Origin: a virus | IMG/VR virus record: IMGVR_UViG_3300025407_001409 | Location: 1 to 36,612 of that record | DNA: 36,612 bases | Reading direction: 5' to 3' (one strand) | Part shown: one piece after another, positions 340 to 35,459 of the stretch | Position numbering within the stretch: the first letter of the stretch is position 1 | How the letters are laid out: each line of letters opens with the position of its first letter | The notes under the pieces: model-generated | The model's database searches: none | What the model was told of the DNA's origin: nothing | The model's input: only the letters and a program-made list of their open reading frames with translations | Made by a program: the position numbers and the translations under genes

Positions 340-1030
340 ATTTGACGCTTATCCAGTTAATAATAATCTGCCTACTGCAAAGATAGAGCAATTAAAGATT
401 AAACGTGAATGGATGAATCCAGCTGTCTACAATTGCACACCTTTAGTTTTGGGAAATTCTTTGGGTTATGGGATTTATTTTGATGAAGACATATCATTTA
501 TTTGGGATGGAGATGTAAGACACCCATCTAAAGTTTTAAAAGGAGAAAATTTTGTGGGCCCCGACCGTGGTGCTGGAAGCGTAAGTTTTCATACTAACCT
601 TGTTTTTAAAACAGATGAAAATACAAGTCTTTTAACAATGCCAGTTCCTAATCAGCCAATTAAAGATGCAACAGTTTTAACCACTGTATTATCAACTTCT
701 TTTTTTACACAACTATTACCTATAGTTTGGCAATTGGATATACCAAATAAAGAATATTTTGTGCCAGCTGGGACATATGTGGGGTGTATTTTACCAATAT
801 CTGTTTCTCAGTTTCAAGATACTTCATTAACTGTTCATAAAAATCCATATCCTTTTCCAGAAGTTCACGGGCCAGAGTATATAGCAGCTTTAAAAGAAGG
901 TCAACGTCAAGGAAAATTTTTAAAATTTTATCAAAAAGGCGTTGATCATTTAGGTAATATTATTGGAAAACATGAAGTAAAATCTTTACGATTAAACATA
1001 AATTATGATGAGGGTGATAAAAATGTTTGA
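332..1030 (+). CDS. DUF6065-like protein
   Basis: The 232-residue protein carries REWMNP near the N-terminus, then NSLGYGI, FIWDGD, GAGSVSFHTNLVFKT and PVPNQP, and later PAGTYVGCILP. This order matches what I recall of DUF6065, a family of unknown function that often sits near 2OG oxygenases; here the next gene is one. I chose ATG 332 over the TTG at 311 because GGGA lies just upstream and the 8-nt overlap with the previous gene matches local style. No catalytic role can be assigned. Confidence 0.6.
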   Translation: MYKFDAYPVNNNLPTAKIEQLKIKREWMNPAVYNCTPLVLGNSLGYGIYFDEDISFIWDGDVRHPSKVLKGENFVGPDRGAGSVSFHTNLVFKTDENTSLLTMPVPNQPIKDATVLTTVLSTSFFTQLLPIVWQLDIPNKEYFVPAGTYVGCILPISVSQFQDTSLTVHKNPYPFPEVHGPEYIAALKEGQRQGKFLKFYQKGVDHLGNIIGKHEVKSLRLNINYDEGDKNV

Positions 1031-1877
1031 AAAGCTAGTTATTGCTCCACAAATAATTGTATATAAAAATTTATTTGAACATTGTGATGAACTAATTGAT
1101 ATTATAGAAAACAAAGATCGTACTGATTCCTTATGGCCAAAATGGGAACCTTGGTACGATCAAGGTGAAAATATAAGTCAACTGTTTTATAGAAAAGATT
1201 TTTATTCAGAAGATAATGATGAAAAGAAAATTTTAAAATATATTGCTAATGTTTACGATTTTATTCAAAAAGAATATTTGGACGATTATTTAAAAGAAAA
1301 AGGCGTTTGGCCAACATACATAAATCAATGGGAAAAGGTCTATGAAAAGTTGGATCCTGTACCGATAAATATTTATAAGTATAGTGAAGAGCTTTTCAAA
1401 ACAAAATCTAAAGATGGATTAATGCTTGAGTACCACGTTGATGAAATGCCAGAAATTAACGACTCTGATTGGCATCAAATTGTTACTATAACTTTTTATC
1501 TTAATGATAATTATGATGGCGGAGAAATATGTTTTTACTCAGAAGCAGAAAATAAAGCTTATAAATATAAACCTAAAAAAGGTGATGTAACTGTATTTCC
1601 ATCAGGCGCACCTTTTTATCATGCTGTTGAAAATTTTTCAGGAGCAGATAGATATTTTATGAGAATTTTTATTCCTTATTCTACTGAGGGAGACAAAGAA
1701 TTTATAGAGAATAGTGTGTTTTATGATGAAGATTTTATGAAGAAGCAAGAAGAAAAAACAAATGATTTTGTATCTAAATATACACATGCTGTAACTTTGC
1801 AATTTCCAGGGCAACGGGTAGACAAAGTGTACGGTAAACTGGTACAATTAGATGAGAATATTATTATTATAAAATAG
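1023..1877 (+). CDS. 2OG-Fe(II) oxygenase (prolyl-4-hydroxylase-like)
   Basis: A 284-residue protein with the double-stranded beta-helix signature of 2-oxoglutarate/Fe(II) oxygenases. The iron ligands are H138 and D140 in YHVDE and H200 in FYHAVENF, and R210 in ADRYFMR is the likely 2OG-binding arginine. The strand YLNDNYDGGEI between them is typical of the P4H-like class. Such enzymes hydroxylate Pro, Lys or other side chains using O2 and 2OG. The ATG at 1023 follows GAGGGTGA at good spacing and overlaps the DUF6065-like gene by 8 nt, so the two are probably co-translated. The N-terminal 130 residues are not recognised and may bind substrate. Confidence 0.85.
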   Translation: MFEKLVIAPQIIVYKNLFEHCDELIDIIENKDRTDSLWPKWEPWYDQGENISQLFYRKDFYSEDNDEKKILKYIANVYDFIQKEYLDDYLKEKGVWPTYINQWEKVYEKLDPVPINIYKYSEELFKTKSKDGLMLEYHVDEMPEINDSDWHQIVTITFYLNDNYDGGEICFYSEAENKAYKYKPKKGDVTVFPSGAPFYHAVENFSGADRYFMRIFIPYSTEGDKEFIENSVFYDEDFMKKQEEKTNDFVSKYTHAVTLQFPGQRVDKVYGKLVQLDENIIIIK

Positions 1878-1888
1878 TCAGGGTTAAA

Positions 1889-2071
1889 ATGATAACAGAA
1901 AAAAATCAACAAGAATTCCTAATTTGGTTTAACAACGGAATAAACCAAGGTTGGATATCAAAAATGCAATGCGCTACTCATGAGGGAATTGATCCAATTT
2001 CTCAAGAAGAAATAGATGAGTGGGAAGCTGGTGGGGATCCCTGCCAATTTGTAGTAAGAATACTAGAATAG
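1889..2071 (+). CDS. Small acidic hypothetical protein
   Basis: A 60-residue acidic protein containing a WFNNGINQGWIS segment and a C-terminal WEAGGDPCQFVVRI. It has two cysteines, so no complete zinc site is visible. AGGGT lies upstream of the ATG. It sits between a 2OG oxygenase and the peroxidase with short gaps, in one apparent operon. I do not recognise a family. Confidence 0.65.
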   Translation: MITEKNQQEFLIWFNNGINQGWISKMQCATHEGIDPISQEEIDEWEAGGDPCQFVVRILE

Positions 2072-2078
2072 GAAAAAA

Positions 2079-2543: not shown

Positions 2544-2551
2544 GGAATAAT

Positions 2552-2994: not shown

Positions 2995-3772
2995 AGATTT
3001 AATTGCTAATTTAAAATTTCAAAAAAATTCAAACCCAGAAGGATTTGATCCAATTGCTTTTGCAGAAATGTATGAAGAAGCAGTTTTAAGTGAAAAGAGG
3101 CCAAATGAATTTACTCAAAAAAAGACTTTTAGTCCTAGTAGTGTTGGCTATGGTAACGGTAACTGTCCTAGATATTGGTTCATTGCTTTTACTGGTGCTG
3201 AATTTGAAAATGAAACCGATGCTATGGGTGTCGTTAATATGGATAATGGTACGTATGTCCATGAGCGTATACAAAAAATCATGGCTAAAACGCCAGTATT
3301 CAAAGCAAATGAAACAGAAGTTACACACGATGATCCTCCAATTAGAGGCTTTGCAGACACTTTTATTGAGTGGAATGGACAAGAAGTAGTAGGAGAAATT
3401 AAATCTGCCAAGCAAGAAATTTTTGATATTCGTCAAGCAGAGATGCAAGGATTGCCATATCATAAAGTTCAACTACTTACCTACATGAAAATTCGTGGAG
3501 CTAAACAGGGATTTTTCTTTTATGAGAACAAAAATGATAATAGCTTTTTAATCATTCCAATAAATATGGATGAAAAAAATACTAAGCTGGTTGATGATGT
3601 ATGGAATTGGTTACGCAAAGTGTATTCAGCCTACGAGGCTGGAACTTTGCCAGAACGCACTTTTACTAAATCTCAGTGGGCTTGCAAAGGATGTCCAGTA
3701 AAAAAGGTATGTTGGTCCGACAAAAAAGATTTGGGAGAAGTTTACATAGAACCATTGGTGCTTGAAAAATGA
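2987..3772 (+). CDS. Cas4/RecB-like Fe-S PD-(D/E)XK exonuclease
   Basis: A 261-residue nuclease with four cysteines placed as in Cas4/AddB-type iron-sulfur nucleases: C60 (GNCPRYW) and C233, C236, C242 (WACKGCPVKKVCW). Between them lie the RecB-type motifs: YVHERIQ with the motif-I His, RGFADTFIE with the metal-binding Asp, VGEIKSA (ExK) and HKVQLLTYM with the conserved Gln. It probably degrades or resects DNA during phage recombination. No CRISPR array or other cas gene is present, so this is a stand-alone phage-type enzyme. The next gene starts within its stop (ATGA). Confidence 0.85.
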   Translation: MGRDLIANLKFQKNSNPEGFDPIAFAEMYEEAVLSEKRPNEFTQKKTFSPSSVGYGNGNCPRYWFIAFTGAEFENETDAMGVVNMDNGTYVHERIQKIMAKTPVFKANETEVTHDDPPIRGFADTFIEWNGQEVVGEIKSAKQEIFDIRQAEMQGLPYHKVQLLTYMKIRGAKQGFFFYENKNDNSFLIIPINMDEKNTKLVDDVWNWLRKVYSAYEAGTLPERTFTKSQWACKGCPVKKVCWSDKKDLGEVYIEPLVLEK

Positions 3773-4497
3773 AAAAAGCAATCTTTTTTACAACGTTTAA
3801 TAGGGTAGACTACTTAAAAGAAACACTCATCAGCTGGTCAAAAATAGAAAATTTTAATGGATGGCACCTACATTTTTATGTTGAGCCTAGCGAAGTTAGA
3901 GATCAGATTCTTGATGTCATTAATAACTTTATAGATACTGTAGACGTAAGTTATTTTAGCATTAACTACAATGCCAAGCTTCTAGGCAATGCAACTAACA
4001 CCTGGCAGGGTTTTGAAAAATTATTTAAAGAATACGATTTTGTAGTATTAGCTGAAGATGATGTAGTCGTATCTAAAGACATATTAAGATATTTTGATAA
4101 GTTAGAAAAAATGTATCGTGATGATCAGGAAATAGCAATTATTTCTGCTAACACTAAGTGGGGAACATATGACCCAAGCACAGTTGTTCGTGAGCAAGGA
4201 TTTAATGGACTTGTTTGGGGAACATGGAAAAAATATTGGGTAGATTATTTTGTAGAAAATTGGGACAAAGATTATTCTTCTGATCCAGTTCATAACGGTT
4301 GGGATTGGCATTTAAACTTAAGGCTTTTGCCAAAAAATAAATTAAAAAATATAAATCCAATGGCATCCCGATCAAACCATGTAGGAATAAATGGTATTCA
4401 TTGTAATGAAAAAATATTTGATGAAACACAATCTAAATCATTTAAAGAAAACCATGAGTGGTTAAATCTGGTAGAGTTTAAGGGAGATATCATATGA
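3769..4497 (+). CDS. GT-A glycosyltransferase, GNT-I/GT13-like
   Basis: The 242-residue protein starts with a nucleotide-sugar binding strand, FFTTFNRVDYLKETL, and carries LAEDDVVVS near residue 92, the DxD-like metal site. Downstream, AIISANTKWG, GLVWGTWKKYW, GWDWHLN and the final SRSNHVGINGIH follow the order seen in GlcNAc-transferase I-like (GT13) enzymes. It probably transfers a sugar to a protein or to another sugar. It overlaps the nuclease upstream and the zinc protein downstream by 4 nt each. Acceptor and donor cannot be read from sequence. Confidence 0.72.
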   Translation: MKKAIFFTTFNRVDYLKETLISWSKIENFNGWHLHFYVEPSEVRDQILDVINNFIDTVDVSYFSINYNAKLLGNATNTWQGFEKLFKEYDFVVLAEDDVVVSKDILRYFDKLEKMYRDDQEIAIISANTKWGTYDPSTVVREQGFNGLVWGTWKKYWVDYFVENWDKDYSSDPVHNGWDWHLNLRLLPKNKLKNINPMASRSNHVGINGIHCNEKIFDETQSKSFKENHEWLNLVEFKGDII

Positions 4498-5334: not shown

Positions 5335-5520
5335 ATGGCTAAAAGTACAAAGCTTTGGGAAAACAAAGACTGGGTAGTTAAAAGATATTCTGTAGAAAAG
5401 AAAACAGTTCTGCAAATGGCTATGGAAGCAAAGTGTTCACACATGACAATACAAAGAGCATTAGAGCGTTTTGATCTTATTAAAAAACCTAGAAAATGGA
5501 TTAAAGATGGAAAAAAATAG
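5335..5520 (+). CDS. Small helix-turn-helix protein
   Basis: A 61-residue basic protein with a strong Shine-Dalgarno (AAGGAGGT at 5325-5332). The middle reads as a helix-turn-helix: YSVEKKTVLQMAMEA, then CSHMTIQRALERFDLI, similar to the DNA-binding half of phage transcription factors that recognise a short site. The C-terminal KKPRKWIKDGKK is strongly basic. It may regulate phage genes. It overlaps the GT25 gene by 14 nt. Confidence 0.7.
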   Translation: MAKSTKLWENKDWVVKRYSVEKKTVLQMAMEAKCSHMTIQRALERFDLIKKPRKWIKDGKK

Positions 5521-6253
5521 TACCTGCTTTAGCATTTTTCACATACCTAAACTTGGTAAAGACTACCAGAGAAGGTTTGGCTGTTATTTATCATTAAAAC
5601 AAATTTTATCAATTAAGTATGATAATCTTAATAATGATACTATAAAAATTCAAAATGAAGAAGATTATATTAATTTTAAAGAAAAGCATTTTTCTTTAAA
5701 TCTTAAAGACTTGTTAACATACGGCGAGATAGGTCTTTGGGCAAGTAACCTATTAACTTTTAAAAAGTTTTTAGAAAGTGATTACGAATATCTTTTTGTA
5801 TTCGAAGACGATGTGGTTTTAGAAACAAATTTTTTTGATTTGTTTGAAAAATACAAAAATCAGCTGCCAGATGATTTTGATTTATTTACTTTGCATACAA
5901 GAGATATGGAGTTTGTCAGATTTAGTGGTGAAGAAGTGAATGGTGTTGTACCGCTTTATCAATGGTGGGACACAGGAGCAGTTTTTTATTCAAGGTCTGG
6001 TGTTGAAAAAATATTAAAGGCTGTGGAATCAAATGGTATTGACTGTCCTGTAGATCTTTTCTTTTTTGATTGTAAAAAGAAAAATGATGATTACGTACCT
6101 AAAGAACTAGATCCAAATGAAAAACATCCTAAAAAATATAATTTTAATTCTTATGCTCTAAGCCCAAAAGCAAAAAAGCTTTTGTATAAAATAACTTTAG
6201 AGTCTAATATATGGTTGCTTGAAAGAATTGACTTTAATAAAAAAACAATATAG
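5507..6253 (+). CDS. Glycosyltransferase family 25 (GT25)
   Basis: The 248-residue protein has the GT25 core: TYGEIGLWASNLLTFKKFL (family pattern GEIGC..SH) followed by LFVFEDDVVL, the EDD metal/nucleotide site. Further on, DDFDLFTLHTR, WWDTGAVFYSRSGVEKIL and DCPVDLFFFD match the conserved acceptor-side segments. GT25 includes LPS galactosyltransferases and the collagen hydroxylysine galactosyltransferases. ATG 5507 is chosen because the upstream 12 codons lie inside the HTH gene without an RBS. The His of the usual SH pair is replaced by N, so this is a divergent member. Confidence 0.8.
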   Translation: MEKNSTCFSIFHIPKLGKDYQRRFGCYLSLKQILSIKYDNLNNDTIKIQNEEDYINFKEKHFSLNLKDLLTYGEIGLWASNLLTFKKFLESDYEYLFVFEDDVVLETNFFDLFEKYKNQLPDDFDLFTLHTRDMEFVRFSGEEVNGVVPLYQWWDTGAVFYSRSGVEKILKAVESNGIDCPVDLFFFDCKKKNDDYVPKELDPNEKHPKKYNFNSYALSPKAKKLLYKITLESNIWLLERIDFNKKTI

Positions 6254-9468: not shown

Positions 9469-10236
9469 ATGAAAAAAGTACTAATAATTGGTGGCTCTTC
9501 AAGTATTTGCGATGAAATTATATCCTATTTAGAAGAACATGGTTATGAAATTGATATGTTGACATATCGTGATTATAGAAAAATTTATGGTAATTATAAT
9601 TGGCAACATCTTGATTTAACAAATAAAGATAGTGTTGAAAATTTTATTAATATTTTGCCAGATCAATACTACGATAAAGTAATTTGTGTTCCAACGTATA
9701 ATAGTGGTGGAAGAAATCCATTTATAACAAGTAGAGAATATTTATCTGATTTATTTGGAAATTTTACAATTAATTATATGATATTAATTAGAAGTTTATT
9801 TAAAAAGATTACAAAAAATGGACACATTGTTTATATATCAACTGCTTCTGCCAATATGCCTACAGATATGGTTGATTATTCTGCTGCTAAAGGTGCTTTG
9901 CAAAATTACGTTAGATCTTTGTCAAAAAAAGTTACTGGAGAACAAGTAATTTTTAGTATAGCTCCCACAATGATTTATGAAAGTGCGCCATACTACCAGC
10001 ATCTTGGGATTGTTCCTAAAGGGCATAAAGAAAAAACATTGGGGGGTTATCCACTTCCTGCAACTCAAATTAAAAAAGAAATTATGGATCCAAAAAATGA
10101 AAATTACAATGATACTAGCAAACTTGTAAGGAAAAAAGAAATAGCTAAAATTATTGTAGACGCTGGAGTAAAAGAAAATGGCAAAATAATTTGTCTTGGA
10201 TTTAAACCAGCTCTAAATGATTTTGAAATTAGATAA
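9469..10236 (+). CDS. SDR-family protein 1
   Basis: A 255-residue Rossmann-fold short-chain dehydrogenase/reductase. The nucleotide loop is VLIIGGSSSICDEI, where the final Gly of the classical TGxxxGxG is Cys. The catalytic region has YISTASANM (Ser) and VDYSAAKGAL (YxxxK). ICVPTYNSGGRNPF replaces the usual NNAG strand. The substrate is unknown; SDRs of this shape reduce or epimerise sugars, lipids or polyketides. It closely resembles the third gene of the trio. ATG 9469 is chosen because the protein then starts MKKVLIIGG like its paralogue. Confidence 0.85.
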   Translation: MKKVLIIGGSSSICDEIISYLEEHGYEIDMLTYRDYRKIYGNYNWQHLDLTNKDSVENFINILPDQYYDKVICVPTYNSGGRNPFITSREYLSDLFGNFTINYMILIRSLFKKITKNGHIVYISTASANMPTDMVDYSAAKGALQNYVRSLSKKVTGEQVIFSIAPTMIYESAPYYQHLGIVPKGHKEKTLGGYPLPATQIKKEIMDPKNENYNDTSKLVRKKEIAKIIVDAGVKENGKIICLGFKPALNDFEIR

Positions 10237-10263
10237 AAAATAATATTTAGTATGGAGGCAACT

Positions 10264-10944
10264 TTGCAAAAAGTTTTAATTATTGGCGGGACAAATAAAA
10301 CTGCCACCAGTGTTGCAAGAGAGCTTGAAAATAACGGTTACTCAATAGAAGGAATGACTTATAGAGACACCAAAAAAGTTACAGAATATTTTAAAAACTG
10401 TATATGGAGTCATTTAAATCTTTCAGATAACTATATTGTAAATGATTTTATAAGAAGTCAAAAAGATAAAGAGTATGACAAAATTATTTTTTTTATTTCA
10501 AATTCAACTCAAATTAATGGTACAAAATTAAACGATCAAAGGGATGCTTTAAATCAATTTTATGGAGTTTTTTGTGTAAATTACATTTTATTAATTAATA
10601 GCCTATTAAGTTGTCTTTCTGATAATGGATCAATTATTTTTATATCGTCAAGTGCTGCAGATAATGGCTCAAAAGATCCTATTTATTCAAGTGGTAAAGC
10701 TTTAATACAAAGCTATATATTGTCTTTAAATAATTTGTTAAAAAAAGAACAGTCAGCTTTTTCAATATCTCCAGGCACTATAGCGGGGAGTTTATTTTAT
10801 GAATCTTTACCAGAAGATCATCCAGATAAATTAAACAAAAAAGCAATAACTTATCCTAAAGAAATAGCTAATTTAATTATAAAATCCAAAGATTATTCTG
10901 GTAAAAATGTAAGGCTTTCATGGGGCGAGGATTGGAACAAATGA
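10264..10944 (+). CDS. SDR-family protein 2 (TTG start)
   Basis: A 226-residue paralogue of the flanking SDRs. The nucleotide loop VLIIGGTNKTATSVA is further degraded; FISSSAADN and PIYSSGKAL keep the Ser and YxxxK. The start is decided by GGAGG at 10254-10258: it lies 5 nt before TTG 10264, giving MQKVLIIGG in register with its neighbours, whereas the ATG at 10252 would overlap the GGAGG itself. It overlaps the third SDR by 4 nt. Loss of glycines suggests altered cofactor binding. Confidence 0.8.
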   Translation: MQKVLIIGGTNKTATSVARELENNGYSIEGMTYRDTKKVTEYFKNCIWSHLNLSDNYIVNDFIRSQKDKEYDKIIFFISNSTQINGTKLNDQRDALNQFYGVFCVNYILLINSLLSCLSDNGSIIFISSSAADNGSKDPIYSSGKALIQSYILSLNNLLKKEQSAFSISPGTIAGSLFYESLPEDHPDKLNKKAITYPKEIANLIIKSKDYSGKNVRLSWGEDWNK

Positions 10945-11756
10945 AAAAAGTATTAATTATAGGCGGTTCATCGAGCATCTGCGATGGCATTGTAGATTAT
11001 TTAGAAAAAAATGACCATGAAATTGATTTGATGACTTATAGAAATGAACAAAACAAAAAAAATATTAAAAATTTTGAAAAATACAAATGGGTGCATCTTG
11101 ATTTATTAAGTCAAGAAAGTACTGAAAAAATTATATTCGAACTTCCAGATTTTTATTATGACAAAATTATTTGTGTTCCGACTTATCCAAGTGGGCAGAG
11201 AGAACCGCTAAAGACAACAAGGTTATTTTGGGAAGAATTATTTGGTAAATTTATTATAAATTATATGGATTTAATTAGAAATTTAATATTTAAAAAATTA
11301 AAAAATGATGGACATTTTGTTTTTATGTCTAGCGAAGCTGCTAATTCTATTACAGACATGCATGATTATTCTGCTGCTAAGGCCACAATTCAATCTTATG
11401 TAAGATCATTGTCAAAAAAATCAAAAAATAAAACAATTTTTGTTATAGCTACTACAGGTATATATAAAAGTTTATCTTATTATAATCATGGTGAAGATTA
11501 TTATAAGCATGATCCTGATAGATGGGTTATGAAAGAAGATATAGCTAAGATTATCGTAGAGGCAGATAAAATGGATAATGGTAATATATTCACTTTAGGA
11601 TTTTGTCCTTTAAAAACTGAGATTATTGATCGTTATTCTGGTATTTTATATCCATATAACTATACTGAAGGATCTTATAATTATTGGCATAAAATTGTAA
11701 ATCCTCATGATAGGCCTGAAGATGTAATTGACATATTGGGTGATCGCCCATTATAA
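10941..11756 (+). CDS. SDR-family protein 3
   Basis: A 271-residue SDR beginning MKKVLIIGGSSSICDGI, nearly identical there to the first SDR of the trio, with ICVPTYPSGQREP, FMSSEAANS and HDYSAAKATIQSYVRSLSKK. It has an extra C-terminal tail of about 40 residues rich in Tyr, Pro and Asp. ATG 10941 overlaps the previous stop by 4 nt. The shared segments point to tandem duplication followed by divergence. It is the last gene before the tRNA cluster. Confidence 0.85.
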   Translation: MKKVLIIGGSSSICDGIVDYLEKNDHEIDLMTYRNEQNKKNIKNFEKYKWVHLDLLSQESTEKIIFELPDFYYDKIICVPTYPSGQREPLKTTRLFWEELFGKFIINYMDLIRNLIFKKLKNDGHFVFMSSEAANSITDMHDYSAAKATIQSYVRSLSKKSKNKTIFVIATTGIYKSLSYYNHGEDYYKHDPDRWVMKEDIAKIIVEADKMDNGNIFTLGFCPLKTEIIDRYSGILYPYNYTEGSYNYWHKIVNPHDRPEDVIDILGDRPL

Positions 11757-12184: not shown

Positions 12185-12721
12185 ATGAAAACAGTAGGAG
12201 ATAAGTTAGGAAACTTTAATGTTGTTGGCGTAAAGCCAGGAGCATTAACTTATGACGATTCTTCTTTTGAGAATTTGAATCAAGATTCTTTTGCTGGAAA
12301 GTGGAAAATCATTGCATTCTATCCAAAAGATTTTACATTTGTATGTCCAACAGAAATTGTTGCATACGATAAGTTAGTTAATGATTTTAATGACCGTGAT
12401 GCGGTATTGATGACGGGTTCAGTTGACAATGAGTTCTGTAAGGTTGCATGGCGTAACAATCATGTAGATCTTGCTAAGACAAATTCATGGTCATTTGCTG
12501 ATTCAGCTCGTGAACTTTCATCTGATTTGGGTATTATTACCCCTCAAGGAGTTACACTCCGTGCAACATTTATTGTTGATCCAGAGAATGTAATTCAGCA
12601 TATTACAGTAAACAACTTAGATGTGGGTCGCAATGCAGATGAAGCACTACGTGTTTTGGATGCGCTTCAGACTGGTGAGCTTTGTGCTTGCAACCGTCCA
12701 CTCGGAGGAGAAACTCTCTAA
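12185..12721 (+). CDS. ahpC: Alkyl hydroperoxide reductase AhpC (peroxiredoxin)
   Basis: A 178-residue 2-Cys peroxiredoxin. FYPKDFTFVCPTEI holds the peroxidatic C54, and the C-terminal ELCACNRPLGGETL holds C167 and C169, the paired Cys arrangement of mycobacterial AhpC rather than of E. coli AhpC. It reduces alkyl hydroperoxides and peroxynitrite. AAGGAG precedes the ATG, and its stop overlaps ahpD by one base, so the two form an operon just after five tRNAs. A full AhpC/AhpD system in a phage is rare and implies defence against oxidative stress in the infected cell. Confidence 0.96.
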   Translation: MKTVGDKLGNFNVVGVKPGALTYDDSSFENLNQDSFAGKWKIIAFYPKDFTFVCPTEIVAYDKLVNDFNDRDAVLMTGSVDNEFCKVAWRNNHVDLAKTNSWSFADSARELSSDLGIITPQGVTLRATFIVDPENVIQHITVNNLDVGRNADEALRVLDALQTGELCACNRPLGGETL

Positions 12722-13233
12722 TGTCTTGGGTTGATCAACTAAAAGATTCTTTGCCAGAATATGCAAAAGATATTAAGTTGAACTTGGATGCTGTGGTCAA
12801 TCGTTCTACGATTGACCCAGACCAAGCTACTTATTTATCTATTGCTGCTGCTTTTGCAACAGGAAATGGAAAGCTTTTGGCATTCATTGCTGCGGGGGCT
12901 ACAGATGAAGTAGAAAAAAATGCTGCTTTAACTGCTGGTGCTTTGATGGCTCAAAACAATGTATGGTATCCTTACGTTGAAATGGCGGACGATTCTGCTT
13001 TATCTGGTTTACCAGCACAGTTAAGAATGAATGCTATTACATCACATGGCGGTACAACAAAAGCCAAGTTTGAAGCATATTCGTTAGCTTCATCAATTAT
13101 TGGTAAGTGTCATTTTTGCGTTAAGGCGCATTATGAAACTCTTAAGCAAGAGGGATATACAGTAGAGCAGTTGCGTGATATCGGAAGAATTGCGGCAACA
13201 ATTAATGCTTTAAGTAAAATTCTTTCTGCTTAA
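12721..13233 (+). CDS. ahpD: Alkyl hydroperoxidase AhpD
   Basis: A 170-residue AhpD. The active centre keeps every catalytic residue of the Mycobacterium enzyme at the same number: E118, C130 and C133 (GKCHFC) and H137. AhpD passes electrons from lipoamide-linked enzymes (Lpd, SucB) to AhpC, so the phage pair would plug into the host's dehydrogenase complex. The start ATG overlaps the ahpC stop (TAATG), with GGAGGAGA 9-16 nt upstream. Length is normal and nothing looks degraded. Confidence 0.95.
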   Translation: MSWVDQLKDSLPEYAKDIKLNLDAVVNRSTIDPDQATYLSIAAAFATGNGKLLAFIAAGATDEVEKNAALTAGALMAQNNVWYPYVEMADDSALSGLPAQLRMNAITSHGGTTKAKFEAYSLASSIIGKCHFCVKAHYETLKQEGYTVEQLRDIGRIAATINALSKILSA

Positions 13234-21758: not shown

Positions 21759-21988
21759 TGCTTTGTTTTAGCTGTAATAAAGCCAAACAACAATTACAAC
21801 CTACAAAATCAAGTTTGTTATCAGGAATTCAATTGTTTCTTTGTCAAACTTGCATTGATTTAAAATACGAACCACGATGGGTTATTATTTTGGCTGGACG
21901 TCAAAAGGGTGCAGACCATGTTAGAGATCATATTGTGAAGAACCTTTATGTAGGAAATAAAATATCAGCGGAGGAAATAATTGCTTAA
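21758..21988 (+). CDS. Zinc-ribbon phage protein
   Basis: A 76-residue protein with LCFSCNKAK and FLCQTCIDLKYEPRW, two CxxC knuckles forming one zinc ribbon, followed by VIILAGRQKGADHVRDHI. I have seen this layout in actinophage small proteins of unknown function. It overlaps its upstream neighbour by one base and thioredoxin by 8 nt. Confidence 0.7.
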   Translation: MLCFSCNKAKQQLQPTKSSLLSGIQLFLCQTCIDLKYEPRWVIILAGRQKGADHVRDHIVKNLYVGNKISAEEIIA

Positions 21989-22911: not shown

Positions 22912-24015
22912 ATGAACGTAAATAAGAAGATCGCTATTGCAACTGCTGCAGCCCTTGCAATTTTTGGCGTATCAAGCGTTGCTCATGCTAACCCGCTTGC
23001 GGTAACAGTAGCAGGATCAGCAAACACAACAACTTCTGCAGCACCAGCAACAGTAGCGGTTCCAGCATCAAATGTAATTGATTCATCAAATACAGTTGCA
23101 CTTGCTGCTACAGCAGATACAGGTACAGTAGTTTCATTTGTTGCATCAGGCGTTAAGCTTGTTTCAGCACTTAATACAACTCTTGCACCAGTCTCATCTA
23201 CTTCAGGTGTATCATCAATTTCTGTAACATCAACGGGTGTTGCAGCAACAGTATATGCCTATACAACCAGCACAACAGTTGGTTCTGTGACCATTACAAA
23301 TGGTGCATATTCAACAATCGTATACATTAAGGGAACAGCGGGAGCAGCAGCAAATGTTTCTCTTTCACTTCCTTCATCATCAGCGATTGGTACTTCTCCA
23401 ACAATTACAGCAACAGCAACTGACGTTTTTGGTAACCCAGTAGCATCGGAGGCTATTTCTGTAACACTTATTGGTGCAACTTTTGCTGATTTGTCAGTAA
23501 CCAAGACACTTACAACTTCTGCGGTTGCTTCTGCAGCAGGGGTAACACCAGTCACAGTAATTGGTTCAGCAACTTCTACTCTTGCACCAGTATCTGCTGG
23601 TACAGTTACTGTAGTAGCAACTGATACTTCAATTTCTGCAACTTCAACAGGTCTTCCAACAGCGGTCAAGGCAGCTACTGGAACATTTGCGGTTACAGAT
23701 CTTAATGGAACAATTACAGCACTTAATGCACAGATTGCTTCTTTGAATGCACAGATTGCATCGCTAAGTTCACAAGTAACTTCAGCAAATTCAGCACTTG
23801 CAGCAGAAAAAGCAGCACATGCTTCTGATTTTGCAACTGCAACAACTTCTCTAAATGCTGCAACAACAGCACTTACAGTTGAAAAAGCAGCACACGTTGC
23901 TGATCTTACAAATGATAAGGTAAATATTGCATCAATCAATAAGTCTTATTCAGCACTTATTGCCAAGTACAACGCCTTGGCTAAGCGTTTCAAGCAGCCA
24001 CAGCTAACTAAGTAA
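22912..24015 (+). CDS. Secreted Ala/Thr/Ser-rich surface-type protein
   Basis: A 367-residue exported protein: signal peptide (MNVNKKIAIATAAALAIFG, AHA-N cleavage near 26), then about 230 residues of beta-rich Ala/Thr/Ser/Val sequence with an Ig-like segment (TITATATDVFGNPVASEAI), then a coiled coil (LNAQIASLNAQIASLSSQ) and a basic end. It looks like a host-type cell-surface or S-layer-like protein. It has its own promoter and a strong terminator, and its codon use (GCA/ACA-rich) differs from its neighbours, hinting at capture from a host. A role in masking the cell surface is inference. Confidence 0.8.
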   Translation: MNVNKKIAIATAAALAIFGVSSVAHANPLAVTVAGSANTTTSAAPATVAVPASNVIDSSNTVALAATADTGTVVSFVASGVKLVSALNTTLAPVSSTSGVSSISVTSTGVAATVYAYTTSTTVGSVTITNGAYSTIVYIKGTAGAAANVSLSLPSSSAIGTSPTITATATDVFGNPVASEAISVTLIGATFADLSVTKTLTTSAVASAAGVTPVTVIGSATSTLAPVSAGTVTVVATDTSISATSTGLPTAVKAATGTFAVTDLNGTITALNAQIASLNAQIASLSSQVTSANSALAAEKAAHASDFATATTSLNAATTALTVEKAAHVADLTNDKVNIASINKSYSALIAKYNALAKRFKQPQLTK

Positions 24016-25293: not shown

Positions 25294-25878
25294 ATGAATA
25301 ACAAGATTGATATATCCTTAATTAAAGAAGAAGTAAAAAATGCAATAAAAAATCAAAAAGTATTGTATATACCCAATCTATTTCCTGAAGTTCTTGACTG
25401 GGAACAATTTATTAATTTTTTTGATTATGCTAAATCAGATAATTATGTAAGTTCAAAAACAAGAAAAATAAGGTATGGGCTTTCAACTGAAAATCTTTAT
25501 TTGCAAGTGGCTGATATTGTAAATCCAGAAACTGGAAAAAGCGGAAATAATATATCAAAAGAATTAGATGTTGTCGTTGATTTTTTTAATGAAATATTTG
25601 GACACGCAACAAATTATGCTGAATTATATATTAATTTGTCTGGGCATGTAGATTTATTAAATCCTCATACTGACGCATGGTTAGCAATAGGTTGGACTTG
25701 TATTGGAAGTATGGAATGGAGAATATATCCTAATTACGGTGCTGATAAATATCAAGAAAATTATGAGTCATATATTACAAAGCCTGAAGACATAATTATA
25801 GTGCCAATGGATGTTGTTCACCTTGTAGTACCACTTGAACCACGAGCTAGCATATCTTTGGGTTATATAAATAAATAA
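25294..25878 (+). CDS. 2OG-Fe(II)/cupin-like oxygenase
   Basis: A 194-residue protein. H125 and D127 in NPHTDAWLAIG, H176 in MDVVHLVVP and R184 in EPRASISLGY give the HxD...H...R set, with GSMEWRIYP between, nearer to cupin/JmjC-type oxygenases than to the P4H-like ones elsewhere in the window. It lacks the DDYxGGE strand. AAGGTAG precedes the ATG. The following gene is a GlcNAc-transferase-like enzyme, so hydroxylation followed by glycosylation is plausible. Confidence 0.75.
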   Translation: MNNKIDISLIKEEVKNAIKNQKVLYIPNLFPEVLDWEQFINFFDYAKSDNYVSSKTRKIRYGLSTENLYLQVADIVNPETGKSGNNISKELDVVVDFFNEIFGHATNYAELYINLSGHVDLLNPHTDAWLAIGWTCIGSMEWRIYPNYGADKYQENYESYITKPEDIIIVPMDVVHLVVPLEPRASISLGYINK

Positions 25879-25923: not shown

Positions 25924-26793
25924 ATGTCAAATAAAATACTTATATCAATCGCCGCATACAATGAATCCGAACTAGAAAATACTGTAAAAAGTTTTTATAG
26001 TGATGCTGATAACCCAGAAAATTTAATTTTTTCTATAGTTTCTCAAAGTCAACAACACCCAAATTTAAATTTTTTAAACATCAATCAACTAAGATATATA
26101 AAAGTGCTCCCTTCTGATTCATACGGTGTTTCTTGGGCAAGATCAGTTTCTCTTTCACAAACGCAAGATTTTGATTATTATTTTCAAATAGACGCACACA
26201 CATTTAGTGAAAAATCATGGGACACTAAAATAATAGAAAAATATAAAAAATTAAAAAAACAAAATGAAAAAATAATTTTAACTTGTGTTCCAGCTATGTA
26301 TACTATAGGAGAAGATAAAAAAAGAATAATTGGTCCAGTTATTTGTAATGCCGCTAGCAATATGAAAGGAAAATATTTTGGTGAATGGCCAGAAATAACT
26401 GAAATAAATGATGATGAAATTACCTATTATATACAGGGTGCATGTATGTTCGTAGAAAAAAAATACTTTGAGGATTTAGATATAAATCCAGATGTTGGCT
26501 TTTTTTTGGAAGAAATAGTACAATCAATAAGGTCTTTTGCAAAAGAATATAAAATATTTGCTTTTAATTCACCAGTAATATATCATTTTTATAGTCAAGA
26601 TAGAATCAAATATGATGGAAATGATAAGCCAATGGCTGATAAAAATACAAAAGTTTCTTTATTAATAGAAAATGAAAAAAGGGTTGATAAAATTAAATTA
26701 TTAGAAAAATACAAAATAGAAGAAGAAGATTTAAATAAATATTGTGAAAAAACAGGGTTTTTAGGATGGAAGGAAAACTTAAATGTCATTTGA
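25924..26793 (+). CDS. GlcNAc-transferase-like glycosyltransferase (PF11397-like)
   Basis: A 289-residue GT-A enzyme. ISIAAYNESELENTVKSFY and LIFSIVSQSQ form the donor fold of the Skp1-type GlcNAc transferase family, and YYFQIDAHTFSEKSWD supplies the DxH metal motif ('DSHmrF..WD' in the family). YIQGACMFVEKKYF and GFFLEEIVQSIR follow as acceptor-side segments. In Dictyostelium this family adds GlcNAc to hydroxyproline made by a 2OG prolyl hydroxylase. GAGGGGAT precedes the start. It overlaps a small gene by 11 nt. Confidence 0.8.
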   Translation: MSNKILISIAAYNESELENTVKSFYSDADNPENLIFSIVSQSQQHPNLNFLNINQLRYIKVLPSDSYGVSWARSVSLSQTQDFDYYFQIDAHTFSEKSWDTKIIEKYKKLKKQNEKIILTCVPAMYTIGEDKKRIIGPVICNAASNMKGKYFGEWPEITEINDDEITYYIQGACMFVEKKYFEDLDINPDVGFFLEEIVQSIRSFAKEYKIFAFNSPVIYHFYSQDRIKYDGNDKPMADKNTKVSLLIENEKRVDKIKLLEKYKIEEEDLNKYCEKTGFLGWKENLNVI

Positions 26794-26941
26794 TGATTAT
26801 ATTAAAAGAATCATGGAAGAGGATGAAGAATTGTTAAAGAATCTTGGATCTGATTTTGATGAAGAAGGAATCCCATATTGGAAAAAGTGGGGAAACAAAA
26901 AAGAGCCACCCGAAGATGGCCCTTTAAATAAAGATAATTAG
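26783..26941 (+). CDS. Small acidic protein
   Basis: A 52-residue protein (MSFDDYIKRIMEEDEE... ending in a Lys/Pro/Glu-rich tail) that starts 11 nt inside the glycosyltransferase gene after GGAAGGAAAA. It converges with the minus-strand repeat peptide, their stop codons overlapping by 4 nt. Function unknown. Confidence 0.6.
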   Translation: MSFDDYIKRIMEEDEELLKNLGSDFDEEGIPYWKKWGNKKEPPEDGPLNKDN

Positions 26942-27069
26942 TGCTTTGATGGCGCATACGGAGATGCTGGATGAACGGGGACATATGGTGAAGGCTCAGT
27001 ATGAGCTGGTGCATATGGCGAATGTTCAGGTGCTTGAGACGGTGCATAAGGACTATCGTGCTGGGACAT
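26938..27069 (-). CDS. Pro/Tyr-repeat peptide with four SPY(A/V)P motifs
   Basis: A 43-residue protein on the minus strand with a perfect Shine-Dalgarno (AGGAGG, plus-strand 27076-27081) and TATAAT (27104-27109, minus). It contains four copies of SPYAP/SPYVP spaced 10-11 residues apart, with His and Glu between them, and no hydrophobic core. The repeat recalls extensin- or collagen-like Pro-rich substrates of prolyl hydroxylases, and a 2OG oxygenase plus GlcNAc-transferase lie directly upstream on the other strand. It may be a modified virion or surface peptide; this is inference. Confidence 0.75.
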   Translation of the reverse strand: MSQHDSPYAPSQAPEHSPYAPAHTEPSPYVPVHPASPYAPSKH

Positions 27070-30053: not shown

Positions 30054-30201
30054 AGAAGCAAGAAAAAAAAGAAAAAAGAAAAAGCTTGCCAACCACGTTG
30101 AATGGTTAAACACAATGCACAAGGCTGGAATTAAACTAGATGTCAATTTAATTAATAGTAAAAATATAGTGGATAAGATTGTAAGCAAAAACGCAAAATG
30201 A
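30043..30201 (+). CDS. 52-residue Lys/Arg-rich protein
   Basis: Starts 11 nt inside the preceding gene. The first 15 residues are almost all Lys or Arg (KKRKKKKL), then LANHVEWLNTMHKAGI. Strong basic charge suggests RNA or DNA binding. It overlaps the GT25 gene by 4 nt. Confidence 0.55.
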   Translation: MSNKEARKKRKKKKLANHVEWLNTMHKAGIKLDVNLINSKNIVDKIVSKNAK

Positions 30202-30932
30202 AATTAAATGAATTCTTTGATCATATTTATTGTGTTAATTTAGACCGCAGAACTGATCGTTGGGAATACGTAAGTAATCAATTCATAAATATGGGTATTA
30301 AAGCTGAGCGTTTTTCAGCTGTAGATGGAAATTTTTGCCATTTTGATCAACTTTCTATTGTTGATCACACAAAAAAAAGATGGTTTGATATTGGCGATGA
30401 TGCATTAACTGCAAATGAAGCAGCAATTCTTGCTACACACGTAGGAATATTATGGGATGCTGTGGCAAAAGGATATAAAAACATATTAATTACTGAGGAT
30501 GACGTTGTAATTAGAAAAGATTATGAAGAAGAGTTTGGTAAGGCTGTTGCAGAACTACCAGAAAACTGGGACTTATTTTATTTAGGAACTCTTGATGTGA
30601 ATAAGCCATTTAGTCCAAATCTTCCATTTTCTGATCATTTAGAAATTGCACGTGACAGAATAGGTGCTCATGCGATGGCTATAAATTCTAAGGCGTTGCT
30701 TGATTTTATTGAAATTATAAATCTTAAAACTAAAATGCCTGTAGATGTGATATACTCAAAAAGACAAATAGATTTTCAATGTTATGAAATGAAAAATAAT
30801 ATAGCTTATCAGTACGGCTGGCATACAGGAGACAAGGGTAGAAAAGAAATTGATGGCATTGGGGCATCAGATATAAATGACCCTGCAATATTTGCAAAAT
30901 ATCTTGAAGATAAATACGGAAAGAAGGATTAG
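30198..30932 (+). CDS. Glycosyltransferase family 25 (GT25)
   Basis: A 244-residue, near-textbook GT25: HIYCVNLDRRTDRWEYV, ERFSAVDG, TANEAAILATHVGILWDAV and ILITEDDVVIRKDYEEEF, then WDLFYLGTLD and GAHAMAINSKALLDF. The acceptor is unknown; the family includes collagen hydroxylysine galactosyltransferase. It lies about 1.1 kb before the run of five oxygenases. It has the best family match of the three GT25 genes here. Confidence 0.9.
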   Translation: MKLNEFFDHIYCVNLDRRTDRWEYVSNQFINMGIKAERFSAVDGNFCHFDQLSIVDHTKKRWFDIGDDALTANEAAILATHVGILWDAVAKGYKNILITEDDVVIRKDYEEEFGKAVAELPENWDLFYLGTLDVNKPFSPNLPFSDHLEIARDRIGAHAMAINSKALLDFIEIINLKTKMPVDVIYSKRQIDFQCYEMKNNIAYQYGWHTGDKGRKEIDGIGASDINDPAIFAKYLEDKYGKKD

Positions 30933-30933
30933 T

Positions 30934-32018: not shown

Positions 32019-32609
32019 TTGAATATAATAAAATATGGCGATATATGGCAGTTTGAAGAAGCTCTTTTAAATCCTGAAGAGCTTGTCAAAAGTTTATCAG
32101 CTATGCCAAATTGGAAACCATATAACAATGATGGCGGGGGATCTACTTTAAATGCAAAAGCAATTTATATTGATAAAACAAACTATCAGTATAAAAAATT
32201 TATTGAGGTATTTTCAGAATGTATTAACAATTATACACCAGCATTAAATAAAAATATTTCTAAAGAACATATTGATTCTTTGCAGTTCATGACTAGAGTT
32301 TACTTTGCTGGTTCTTATATGTCAAAACATTACGACAAATACGGATACCTACTAGAAGATGGGAAACCAACAACTCCCATTTTTACATCAATTCTTTATT
32401 TAAACGAGGATTATCAGGGTGGAGAGCTGTTTTTTACAAAACATGATTTAACAATTAAGCCTAAAGCTGGAACATTAATAATGTTTCCTAGTTTTGAAAA
32501 TCACTTAGTAAATAAAATAATAAGTGGAGAAAGATATATGACTCAAACTTATGTATACGAAAAACAAATATCAGAATATGGGGAAAAAAATGAAACCAAT
32601 AGTTATTGA
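32019..32609 (+). CDS. 2OG-Fe(II) oxygenase
   Basis: A P4H-like oxygenase of about 196 residues: H104 and D106 in KHYDKYGY, YLNEDYQGGELFF, H162 in ENHLVNKI and Arg in SGERYM. The start is uncertain: upstream frame overlaps the zinc-knuckle gene, so I choose TTG 32019 (product then begins like its neighbours, MNIIKYGDIW); GTG 31992 is the alternative. First of four consecutive plus-strand oxygenases. It overlaps the next by 20 nt. Confidence 0.82.
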   Translation: MNIIKYGDIWQFEEALLNPEELVKSLSAMPNWKPYNNDGGGSTLNAKAIYIDKTNYQYKKFIEVFSECINNYTPALNKNISKEHIDSLQFMTRVYFAGSYMSKHYDKYGYLLEDGKPTTPIFTSILYLNEDYQGGELFFTKHDLTIKPKAGTLIMFPSFENHLVNKIISGERYMTQTYVYEKQISEYGEKNETNSY

Positions 32610-33117
32610 TAATTTTATTAGTAGCGAATCAGCATCTGAACTTAACTCTTATCTTAAATCAATATCTGTTTTAAGTCCAAAAAATCTTTTAAACGTATAT
32701 ATTACTGAGAACGGTATATCGGATAAAGCAGATGTTAAATTTAATGATTTAGTTATAAAAATAGTTAAAGAAATTAAAGATAAGTTTGAGGTAGAAAACC
32801 TTGTTTTGGATAGAGCAATGTATCAAATTCTTGAAACTGGTCAAGAGCTTGGCTGGCATACTGATGCATATGGAGGAGTAGATGGCTACACAGAATCTTA
32901 TTATTCAGCCTTGCTTTATTTGACTGACGATTACGGCGGTGGAGAGATATTGTTTTACGATGATCTTTCGGGCGATAAAGAAAAAAGTACATCTTACAAA
33001 CCAGACGCTGGGTCTTTAATATATTTTAAAGGCGACGAAGAAACGCCTCATTCTGTTAATATGATAACTTCTGGTGAAAGAAGCAACATCATACTGTTTT
33101 ATAAGATAGCAAAATAA
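32590..33117 (+). CDS. 2OG-Fe(II) oxygenase
   Basis: A 175-residue oxygenase: H90 and D92 in GWHTDAYG, YLTDDYGGGEILFY, H154 in TPHSVNMI and Arg in SGERSNI. The opening PIVIDNFISSESASEL is shared in style with the genes at 33516 and 34208 (NILDEFIS, KIIENFIS), indicating paralogues. GGGGAAAA precedes ATG 32590. Confidence 0.88.
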   Translation: MKPIVIDNFISSESASELNSYLKSISVLSPKNLLNVYITENGISDKADVKFNDLVIKIVKEIKDKFEVENLVLDRAMYQILETGQELGWHTDAYGGVDGYTESYYSALLYLTDDYGGGEILFYDDLSGDKEKSTSYKPDAGSLIYFKGDEETPHSVNMITSGERSNIILFYKIAK

Positions 33118-33512: not shown

Positions 33513-33515
33513 ATT

Positions 33516-34163
33516 ATGTCTGAAAAACTTAATATATTGGATGAATTTATTTCAAGGGAAACAGCATACGCCATACATAATTATTTAAAGGATAAAACAC
33601 AACCTCATTATCCAGATGATAATCACCCTAACGGTCTAAGTCGTTTTTCAATATATCATAATCATGAGCTAAATTTTTTTGACACTATAGACGGCACGGG
33701 TAAAAAAATATTTTCTGACGGAGTAAAGCCTGAAGATCTTTTTATGCTTGATTTAAACAACTTAATTGCAAATTCAATAAAGACATATTTTAATTTGCCT
33801 AATAACAAAATTAATCTTTTAACTATGACATATACTAATTACGGACCTACGCAGTATCTACCATTGCATACTGATTGGGGGGTAAGCAAATATGACGTTC
33901 ATTCAGCAATTTTATATTTAACTGACGATTATGATGGCGGAGAGTTTTTGTGGTACACACATTACGATTGGCAGAATCCAGAAACTAATGAGTATATTTC
34001 GCATAAACCAAAATCTGGTCAATTATATTATTTTGAAGGTACGCAATTTGGTCAACATGAGGTTTTGCCAGTTACTTCAGGAGAAAGATCTTGCATTGTT
34101 TTCTTTTACACTGGGGTAGATCTTAAAGTAAAAGCAGAACAAACGGGCGGTTACGTAGGTTGA
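33516..34163 (+). CDS. 2OG-Fe(II) oxygenase
   Basis: A 215-residue oxygenase: H118 and D120 in PLHTDWGV, YLTDDYDGGEFLWY, H181 in GQHEVLPV and Arg in SGERSCI. AAAGGTGA lies upstream of the ATG, which starts 3 nt after the SpeD-like gene. It has an insert after the DDYDGGE strand (HYDWQNPETNEY). Paralogue of its neighbours. Confidence 0.88.
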   Translation: MSEKLNILDEFISRETAYAIHNYLKDKTQPHYPDDNHPNGLSRFSIYHNHELNFFDTIDGTGKKIFSDGVKPEDLFMLDLNNLIANSIKTYFNLPNNKINLLTMTYTNYGPTQYLPLHTDWGVSKYDVHSAILYLTDDYDGGEFLWYTHYDWQNPETNEYISHKPKSGQLYYFEGTQFGQHEVLPVTSGERSCIVFFYTGVDLKVKAEQTGGYVG

Positions 34164-34207
34164 TACCTACTATGATATAATAGTTTTAACAAAAAGGAAT
34201 AGGAAAA

Positions 34208-34786
34208 ATGCAACCAAAAATAATTGAAAATTTTATCAGCAAAGATACATGTAAGTACATTAACGATTATTTTGTAAATAATATAAAGCTTGATGGACAA
34301 GGATACGCTAATATCAACATGAGTGAATTTTTGCCTATTTATGACGAAAATTATTTGTTTAAAACTTTAAAAAAGAAAGATGCCAATGAGGCATTGTTTT
34401 ATGATACATTAAATCTTATTATGGAATCCATGAAAGCTAAATTTAATTATCCAAAAGATGATCTAGGCATAGAACTATTTAATTATAGAAATTTTGGTCA
34501 AGGTCAAAATTTCAAAGAATATCATATAGATGACTACGGCCAAGGTGGCACACTTTTAACTGCTTTGCTTTATTTAACAGATGAATATGAAGGCGGGGAG
34601 ATTGTATTTTATGATGGAGATTTCCCAAGCACTGAAAATCCAATCACTTATAGACCTCAAGCGGGCACATTGTTTTACTTTAGAGGGATAGATCCACATC
34701 TTGTGAATCCAGTAACATCTGGAAGAAGAGCATTGTTTTCTATGAATCTAAGAACGCCTCCAGCAACTCAGACAATTAAATATTAA
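34208..34786 (+). CDS. 2OG-Fe(II) oxygenase
   Basis: A 192-residue oxygenase: H106 and D108 in YHIDDYGQ, YLTDEYEGGEIVFY, H164 in DPHLVNPV and Arg in SGRRALF. It has its own extended -10 (TGATATAAT, 34171-34179) and AAGGAATAGG before the ATG. It converges with a minus-strand oxygenase, the two 3' ends overlapping by 11 nt. Confidence 0.88.
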   Translation: MQPKIIENFISKDTCKYINDYFVNNIKLDGQGYANINMSEFLPIYDENYLFKTLKKKDANEALFYDTLNLIMESMKAKFNYPKDDLGIELFNYRNFGQGQNFKEYHIDDYGQGGTLLTALLYLTDEYEGGEIVFYDGDFPSTENPITYRPQAGTLFYFRGIDPHLVNPVTSGRRALFSMNLRTPPATQTIKY

Positions 34787-35459
34787 TCTTGTTTCCCCAG
34801 TACCACTCTTGGTAAGCAATAAATCTTTTACCTAAATCGGTCTCAAGCCATTCTTTAGAGTTCATAACATCTCTCATTGTAGACGCAGCTTCTTCTTCTC
34901 TGGTAGGATGGTCGTTAGGGTCAACTGGATGATTTTTATCGTAAGCTACAAAAGTAATAAATCTTTTGTTATCTCCTCTTACTGCAGCAGCACCATGAAT
35001 AATAGATGCTGTGTGTAATACTAAATCTCCTTTATGTGGCTGAAACCAGGTATTATTAGTTGGATAGAAAAGTTCTCCGCCATCCATCTCTGAAAGATAA
35101 AGAACCCCACCCCAAGCTTTTTTTAGGGGTGTTGGGTCTGGTGCTTCTTCATCTCTATGGATTGGAAACCAGATGTCGGCGGGATTATGCCAGTGTAAGA
35201 AATATCTTATTTCGTATTCAGTATTTTTAAAGAAATCAAGTACCTTATCCACAGCTCTTTGATCAACTGCTCCATGTAGTAATTGAACCCTATCTGATCT
35301 ATCTTCACGAGCATATCCATTTGAATCGTCTATGCCAGCAGGGCTATTTGATATAGCAGCTGACTGCTCAAACAGGATATCAGATAGTTCATCGCCCAAG
35401 AAATCACGCCAGACATATGCTTCATCACTTATTTTCTCAAAATTACTGAAATCAATCAT
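34776..35459 (-). CDS. 2OG-Fe(II) oxygenase (minus strand)
   Basis: A 227-residue oxygenase on the minus strand: H101 and D103 in PIHRDEEAP, YLSEMDGGELFYP, H155 in IIHGAAAVRG and R161 or R166. AAGGAGAAA precedes the ATG. The C-terminal 50 residues (REEEAASTMRD..., ending WYWGNKINI) are extra and are seen in larger phage P4H-like proteins. It differs more from the four plus-strand copies than they do from each other. Confidence 0.87.
   Translation of the reverse strand: MIDFSNFEKISDEAYVWRDFLGDELSDILFEQSAAISNSPAGIDDSNGYAREDRSDRVQLLHGAVDQRAVDKVLDFFKNTEYEIRYFLHWHNPADIWFPIHRDEEAPDPTPLKKAWGGVLYLSEMDGGELFYPTNNTWFQPHKGDLVLHTASIIHGAAAVRGDNKRFITFVAYDKNHPVDPNDHPTREEEAASTMRDVMNSKEWLETDLGKRFIAYQEWYWGNKINI

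Follow-up and report, generated by a model that had tools for sequence, protein, structure and literature searches.

What does a phage do with eight 2-oxoglutarate (2OG)-Fe(II) oxygenases and five glycosyltransferase-like proteins, and do any of them act together to hydroxylate proteins and then glycosylate the new hydroxyl groups? The question is raised by the virus record IMGVR_UViG_3300025407_001409, the whole of which (36.6 kb, here called the window) was analysed; it is probably a fragment. Its terminase shares up to 66% identity with Streptomyces phage terminases and 100% with that of one viral contig. An initial annotation had proposed that the thirteen enzymes might be one hydroxylate-then-glycosylate system. 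The coordinates of all thirteen were reproduced (genes are named below by their lower coordinate). The 2OG-Fe(II) signature, HxD with a distal His and a distal Arg or Lys (at +8 to +11), is present in 8/8 oxygenases and places them in the superfamily; seven fit a profile resembling prolyl 4-hydroxylases (P4H) and one, 25294, is JmjC/ribosomal-oxygenase-like. Of the five glycosyltransferases, three GT25 and one PF11397 score above Pfam cut-offs, while the GNT-I candidate at 3769 falls below. Judged by their sequences, the enzyme matches reflect homology, not chance patterns. No linkage shared by all thirteen was found, and the claim of a single system was dropped. Within this real and unusual gene set, independent support goes to the JmjC-like oxygenase 25294 and the PF11397 transferase 25924, for which a joint mechanism is plausible and testable. 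They are read here, tentatively and with slightly less than even confidence, as a two-step unit that hydroxylates and then glycosylates protein.

The oxygenase and transferase genes at 25294 and 25924

The core pair and the small gene facing it are as follows.

25294–25878, plus strand: JmjC/ribosomal-oxygenase-like 2OG-Fe(II) oxygenase, core pair member (from family residues, JmjC_2, MINA53 and a structure model)
25924–26793, plus strand: PF11397 (N-acetylglucosamine (GlcNAc) transferase, GT60-like) glycosyltransferase, core pair member, 45 bp downstream of oxygenase 25294
26938–27069, minus strand: SPYAP, gene for a 43-residue Pro-rich peptide with SPY[A/V]P repeats, converging on the transferase; candidate substrate

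Transferase 25924 belongs to PF11397 (E 1.7e-21; 77.5 bits against a cut-off of 21) and carries the motif DAH, the other four glycosyltransferases carrying EDD. No relative of it was found among 50,697 phage records or by a single-sequence scan of IMG/VR, and the PF11397 profile gave 0 matches in the PDB. An alignment scan gave at least 563 viral relatives, the best 80 of which were kept. With the transferase of locus L163 as query, three phage records were matched at 23–25% identity (L-numbers denote fetched viral and bacterial loci; L088–L158 come from the oxygenase scan and are thus biased towards oxygenases, and the labels 'tail' and 'structural' in fetched loci are readings by eye).

Oxygenase 25294 alone has no Pfam match. 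Across its family, H125, D127, H176 and R184 are invariant in 15/15 members, ten of the 15 match JmjC_2 (25294 itself not among them), and the family profile matches MINA53 in the PDB (E 2.1e-8). A model of 25294, with a predicted local distance difference test score (pLDDT) of 84, gives its best structural alignment with YcfD (VIA Z 15.9), followed by JMJD7, PHD2 and JMJD5. The MINA53 and YcfD matches, together with the P4H profile matches of the other seven enzymes, bear out the earlier view that the oxygenases resemble protein hydroxylases. Gnt1 of the Skp1 pathway is, like 25924, of the PF11397/GT60 type; the parallel drawn with that pathway fails for the adjoining oxygenase, which is JmjC-like and not a prolyl hydroxylase.

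Gene order around PF11397 and GT25 genes

In a tree of 91 rows, 25924 is the sister of the L163 transferase (support 100/95). Throughout this nearest subfamily (L162–L166, 41% identity) the oxygenase and transferase genes overlap by 1 base (5/5 loci) and a DUF6065 gene follows closely (5/5), with an 8-base overlap where coordinates were printed; in L162 all three families are confirmed by Pfam. In L139, which came from the oxygenase scan and is also in the PF11397 scan, an oxygenase open reading frame (ORF) cut by the contig end overlaps the transferase by 4 bases. In L083 and L086, both from the terminase search, the gene directly upstream of PF11397 encodes an HxD protein, called by eye; that of L086 matches no Pfam family, and the hidden Markov model (HMM) for the two was made from these two only. 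Oxygenase adjacency takes 8 changes on the 91-row tree against 18.3 in shuffles, a low count that is partly due to near relatives sharing neighbours. In two different phages a carbamoyltransferase gene is found near a PF11397-like gene (L101:2289-5732, and L322, Xanthomonas phage XacN1, where the two are adjacent); the PF11397-like gene of L101 was matched only by an HMM built for this analysis, that of XacN1 by Pfam.

Some bacterial loci also have an oxygenase neighbour. An oxygenase ORF is present in 18/80 bacterial PF11397 loci: ten titled SAR86, five other Gammaproteobacteria, one proteobacterium, and L289 and L307. In those 16 proteobacterial loci the oxygenase is divergent and either overlaps or lies within ~50 bp, and in L289 it lies 0.6 kb from the PF11397 gene. 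In L307, a Burkholderiales metagenome-assembled genome (MAG), a single frame of 621 residues holds both PF11397 (56–298) and PF13640 (507–610), the family matched by most P4H-like oxygenases of the window, each above cut-off; a sample of Burkholderiales had PF11397 in 8/300 genomes. Elsewhere PF11397 is fused to a radical SAM domain (just below cut-off) and SPASM (L257), to a SET part (just below cut-off) and a Rubisco-LSMT-binding part (L268), or to methyltransferase domains (L297 and L302, that of L302 below cut-off). SPASM, Rubisco-LSMT-binding and methyltransferase partners usually act on proteins or peptides, and a protein substrate is therefore favoured. PF11397-type proteins of 622–623 residues occur in L257, L266, L270, L278 and L293; the titles of four of these loci name Deltaproteobacteria.

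An oxygenase was found within 150 bp of PF11397 in 3/15 viral clusters (7/81 genes), two of the three being L083 and L086 with their oxygenases called by eye. Among other genes the figure was 2/688 in the PF11397-scan loci (p 8e-5) and 15/771 in the terminase loci (p 0.004); background genes were of at least 120 residues, which leaves out small neighbours such as the Cys-rich gene described below and makes the background somewhat low, and all 150-bp counts used the previous round of the oxygenase HMM. Adding L139 and removing L083 and L086 gives 2/16 viral clusters (p 0.003 against the 2/688 genes), and accepting all three gives 4/16. For bacteria the count is 6/40 clusters (18/82 genes) against 18/600 genes (p 0.002), or 5/40 on a stricter count (p 0.011). 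What stands out is the proximity of oxygenase and PF11397 genes, not their mere presence.

The remaining glycosyltransferases are listed here.

3769–4497, plus strand: glycosyltransferase, GNT-I/GT2-like, weak assignment (GNT-I E 2e-4, below cut-off)
5507–6253, plus strand: GT25 glycosyltransferase (PF01755 E 2.2e-10)
13717–14409, plus strand: GT25 glycosyltransferase (PF01755 E 1.8e-16), 138 bp upstream of oxygenase 14548
30198–30932, plus strand: GT25 glycosyltransferase (PF01755 E 8.1e-12)

Two oxygenases beside glycosyltransferases had been singled out as pairs. With overlapping genes, divergent neighbours and one fusion among its relatives, 25294/25924 holds up as a likely functional pair; 13717/14548 is absent from the closest GT25 relatives (oxygenase neighbour in 0/20 of L324–L343, some of these loci being truncated) and is found again in a single distant lineage. 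Of 67 GT25 genes, 21 have an oxygenase within 150 bp, and these 21 all belong to one of 10 clusters (L345–L371; p 0.51 by cluster). There the oxygenase is directly downstream as in the window, 19 of the pairs overlapping by 4 bases and two lying 2 bases apart, and in L346 and L369 further sugar-related genes, assigned by eye, surround the pair. In close relatives the pair 13717/14548 appears not to be conserved: L008 and L009 have adjacent 14548-like and 25294-like oxygenases without that GT25, and in L037 and L026 the GT25 is present but the oxygenase is missing. In terminase-related records, 0/12 GT25 matches are within 1 kb of PF13640. The six frames of the window fragment contain 0 Gly-X-Y runs of five, the sign sought of a collagen-type substrate.

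Several observations weigh against reading 25294 and 25924 as a dedicated unit. Close IMG/VR and INPHARED searches with each gene returned no relatives of this exact pair, and the only match to SPYAP in the fetched loci looks like chance. Oxygenase pairing is a trait of some PF11397 branches, since within 1.5 kb the largest viral cluster (33 genes) has 0 oxygenases and the next largest (23 genes) has 1, and the type of oxygenase varies between phages. At 150 bp the oxygenase neighbour is absent for 74/81 viral and 64/82 bacterial PF11397 genes; without L083, L086 and L139 just 1/15 viral clusters is positive (p 0.06). Independent bacterial cases are few, because the six clusters reduce to two lineages, four being of one SAR86-type lineage and two of the same MAG, L307. 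PF13640 is equally frequent at record level, in 8/30 PF11397 records (30 examined out of 79) and 8/30 terminase records. Foldseek, ranked by E-value, puts AlkB-type enzymes first for the 25294 model, so the fold alone leaves the substrate undecided, and the dUTPase-like fold predicted for DUF6065 (below) could point to nucleotides.

Part of this would fit a set of separate accessory genes, in which the glycosyltransferases act on host or phage glycans, the oxygenases have roles unrelated to these and adjacency is mostly chance, the genome being rich in both kinds. The GT25 counts of 0/12 and 0/20 agree with it, as does the equal frequency of PF13640 with and without selection of records by PF11397. 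So do one cyanophage GT25, whose immediate upstream neighbour is annotated as a methyltransferase, with a heptose epimerase 5 kb off and no annotated oxygenase in 10.7 kb, and the relatives of one oxygenase in 374 phage records, mostly of cyanophages. It accounts poorly for the PF11397-oxygenase overlaps and fusion, for adjacency above background and for the GT25-oxygenase coupling in L345–L371, and is considered possible, though on the doubtful side.

Candidate substrates, P4H-like oxygenases and DUF6065

SPYAP, proposed earlier as a target, proves to be a real small gene beside the pair. It encodes 11 Pro in 43 residues, and its four SPY[A/V]P repeats use differing codons. It alone has the perfect ribosome site AGGAGG among 50 minus-strand ATG starts (ORFs of at least 40 residues), and a terminator-like stem (26925–26900; 2 in the region against 0.8 expected) lies 12 bases past its stop. 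The gene faces the transferase, with 144 bp from its end to that gene; a plus-strand ORF of 52 residues (26783–26941) lies between, overlapping the 3′ end of the PF11397 gene and standing tail to tail with SPYAP. SPYAP would be the first candidate substrate of 25294 and 25924.

Pro-rich repeats recur beside related genes. Several viral contigs have a VTP-, PAVTP-, TP- or PD-repeat protein (by eye a tail protein), then a small Cys-rich protein (DUF6171 by Pfam in L162, by motif elsewhere), then an oxygenase, followed by a 25294-like oxygenase or a PF11397 gene. In the oxygenase scan, whose loci are biased and include many near-copies, 16/16 Pro-repeat genes have an oxygenase or PF11397 gene within 500 bp, as does 1/1 in the PF11397 scan. 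In bacteria, 5/6 are within 1 kb (p 0.02). The terminase loci hold seven Pro-repeat genes that share their locus with neither an oxygenase nor a PF11397 gene. The Pro-repeat count missed L172 and includes an ORF of 61 residues in L276 that may be spurious.

A free-standing gene of 43 codons also suits small-peptide tailoring, in which a SPYAP-like peptide would be hydroxylated, glycosylated and perhaps carbamoylated or halogenated, then secreted, rather than virion proteins being modified. The carbamoyltransferases of L101 and XacN1 point this way, as do a by-eye tryptophan halogenase preceding the PF11397 gene in L151 and a subtilase-family gene at 17747, ~8 kb off. A scan of 38 window proteins showed no exporter and no other family recognisable as serving peptide maturation, and several related cassettes follow by-eye tail genes; peptide tailoring is judged improbable.

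The other oxygenases and the DUF6065 gene of the window are these.

332–1030, plus strand: DUF6065 protein (PF19541 E 5.1e-14; start chosen by comparison with L008)
1023–1877, plus strand: P4H-like 2OG oxygenase (PF13640 E 3.9e-13)
14548–15126, plus strand: P4H-like 2OG oxygenase (PF13640 E 3.4e-6)
32019–32609, plus strand: P4H-like 2OG oxygenase, start uncertain (PF13640 E 2.6e-11)
32590–33117, plus strand: P4H-like 2OG oxygenase (PF13640 E 3.5e-12)
33516–34163, plus strand: P4H-like 2OG oxygenase (PF13640 E 2.1e-11)
34208–34786, plus strand: P4H-like 2OG oxygenase (PF13640 E 3.7e-11)
34776–35459, minus strand: 2OG oxygenase, grouped as P4H-like by alignment and HMM only (HRD, H, K/R)

PF13640 is above cut-off in six of the eight oxygenases (1023, 14548, 32019, 32590, 33516 and 34208), a density that is unusual but not unique, any PF13640 being found in 8/30 terminase-related viral records and nine in one record of 104 kb. 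The minus-strand gene 34776 has weak Pfam matches only (best E 0.04), and the iterated HMM that places it in the family could contain its own window copy in later rounds; the oxygenase HMM itself was built from fetched loci with window copies among them. Gene 32019 starts at a TTG, with an alternative ATG at 31905, and a ribosome site was seen at none of the five starts listed. The near neighbours 32590, 33516 and 34208 look like local duplicates, being 32–35% identical to one another over most of their length; 34208 has no close relative in the IMG/VR search, and INPHARED gave 16 weak records. When seven window oxygenases and five relatives were combined into a profile, its best matches were prolyl 4-hydroxylases (B. 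anthracis 1.5e-27, Chlamydomonas 1.6e-19), followed by P3H1, PiuC and PHD2; at E ≤ 0.01 the matches listed include P4H, P3H, PiuC and PHD2, and PLOD is not among them. PHROGs names some of the matched families 'DNA endonuclease' (phrog_2297, phrog_274) and others '2OG-Fe(II) oxygenase'; the former label was set aside in favour of residues and Pfam. In L145 (4255-8600), L088, L092 and L097 several 2OG oxygenases are arrayed around DUF6065 genes, in L145 beside genes that are structural by eye.

The DUF6065 gene overlaps oxygenase 1023 by 8 bp. Its AlphaFold2 model (pLDDT 88) is comparable to dUTPases (VIA Z 10.9; 116 residues at 2.8 Å for 8hrv), and a dUTPase-like fold is predicted. There are two DUF6065 subtypes, sometimes in tandem, one of which keeps an Asp-containing G-x-x-D-x-D; the protein of the window has Ser/Thr in place of the Asp pair, which suggests binding rather than hydrolysis. 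DUF6065 lies within 1 kb of an oxygenase in 37/39 cases in the oxygenase scan and within 1.5 kb of PF11397 for 30/34 genes in the PF11397 scan, counts to be read in the light of those loci having been chosen for those genes; in terminase loci 1/4 is near an oxygenase. An open-licence literature search found no paper on DUF6065, and the PF11397/oxygenase neighbourhoods offer a first context for it.

An oxygenase followed by a glycosyltransferase has a precedent in phage DNA, and hypermodification of DNA or nucleotides, as in phage TET and glycosyltransferase systems, would accommodate the dUTPase-like fold of DUF6065, the true dUTPase at 29470 and the AlkB-type matches of 25294. It is nevertheless judged very improbable. 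Tet_JBP reaches only E 0.23 in one of the eight oxygenases (11.1 bits against a cut-off of 34.9), and the best oxygenase profiles are those of protein hydroxylases; the PF11397 fusion partners and the DUF6065 without its Asp pair also argue against it. No C5-methyltransferase, hydroxymethylase or nucleotide kinase was found in the 38 proteins scanned, a weak point since the record is probably a fragment.

Elsewhere in the window are glutathione peroxidase, peroxiredoxin, CMD-family and ferritin-like genes (by Pfam) and a thioredoxin-like gene (by eye), at 2079–2543, 12185–13233, 16440–16877 and 21981–22277; this redox and iron set co-occurs with the eight Fe(II) oxygenases. Three short-chain dehydrogenase genes in tandem (9472–11756) are flanked by the terminase on one side and a cluster of five tRNA genes on the other. 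A secreted-looking protein (22912–24015) has relatives at 53–66% identity in L143, L144 and L146, which also have oxygenases.

Proposed pathway and known systems

Under the preferred reading of 25294 and 25924 as a two-step protein unit, the JmjC-like oxygenase would, during infection, hydroxylate a phage protein or peptide on its side chains, after which the PF11397 transferase would add a sugar, probably N-acetylhexosamine, onto that hydroxyl. SPYAP is the first candidate substrate here; Pro/Thr-repeat proteins, by eye of the tail, may serve in other phages. The P4H-like oxygenases, some of them linked to DUF6065, probably hydroxylate further proteins, and the GT25 enzymes may glycosylate some hydroxylated proteins, or glycans. 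A wider proposal, that phages and some bacteria run a pathway of O-glycosylation on hydroxylated residues, with P4H or JmjC oxygenases and PF11397 enzymes, DUF6065 and DUF6171 as accessories, Pro/Thr-repeat surface or tail proteins (here SPYAP) as substrates, and the Skp1 pathway as a branch of this older prokaryotic and viral system, seems unlikely as a whole.

That proteins are hydroxylated and then glycosylated is well established in eukaryotes, and one enzyme of a giant virus has been shown to do the same. No phage system of a hydroxylase and a glycosyltransferase acting on protein was among the matches listed in a search of open-licence literature, subscription journals and preprints not being covered. 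If the reading is true, phages gain an oxygen-dependent way to decorate their proteins, small enzymes become available for study, and the origin of the Skp1 oxygen-sensing pathway is opened to test.

The ribosomal oxygenases YcfD, MINA53 and NO66, which hydroxylate ribosomal proteins, are like 25294 in fold and metal site; they are not known to have a paired glycosyltransferase. The mimivirus protein L230 is described as a bifunctional lysyl hydroxylase and glucosyltransferase that first hydroxylates viral protein peptides and then glycosylates them, with a glycosyltransferase domain resembling the GT25 enzyme GLT25D1 (PMC9614988). L230 differs in having a collagen-like substrate and a PLOD-type hydroxylase; the oxygenases of the window are of P4H and JmjC types, and Gly-X-Y runs of five are absent from it. 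Dictyostelium and Toxoplasma have the Skp1 pathway, in which the prolyl 4-hydroxylase PhyA acts first and the GlcNAc transferase Gnt1 second (PMC9485057). The likeness is a 2OG hydroxylase feeding a transferase, and P4H-like enzymes are present elsewhere in the window. The differences are that the oxygenase adjoining 25924 is JmjC-like rather than a prolyl 4-hydroxylase, that no Skp1 takes part, and that some phages and bacteria have the two genes next to each other, overlapping or fused.

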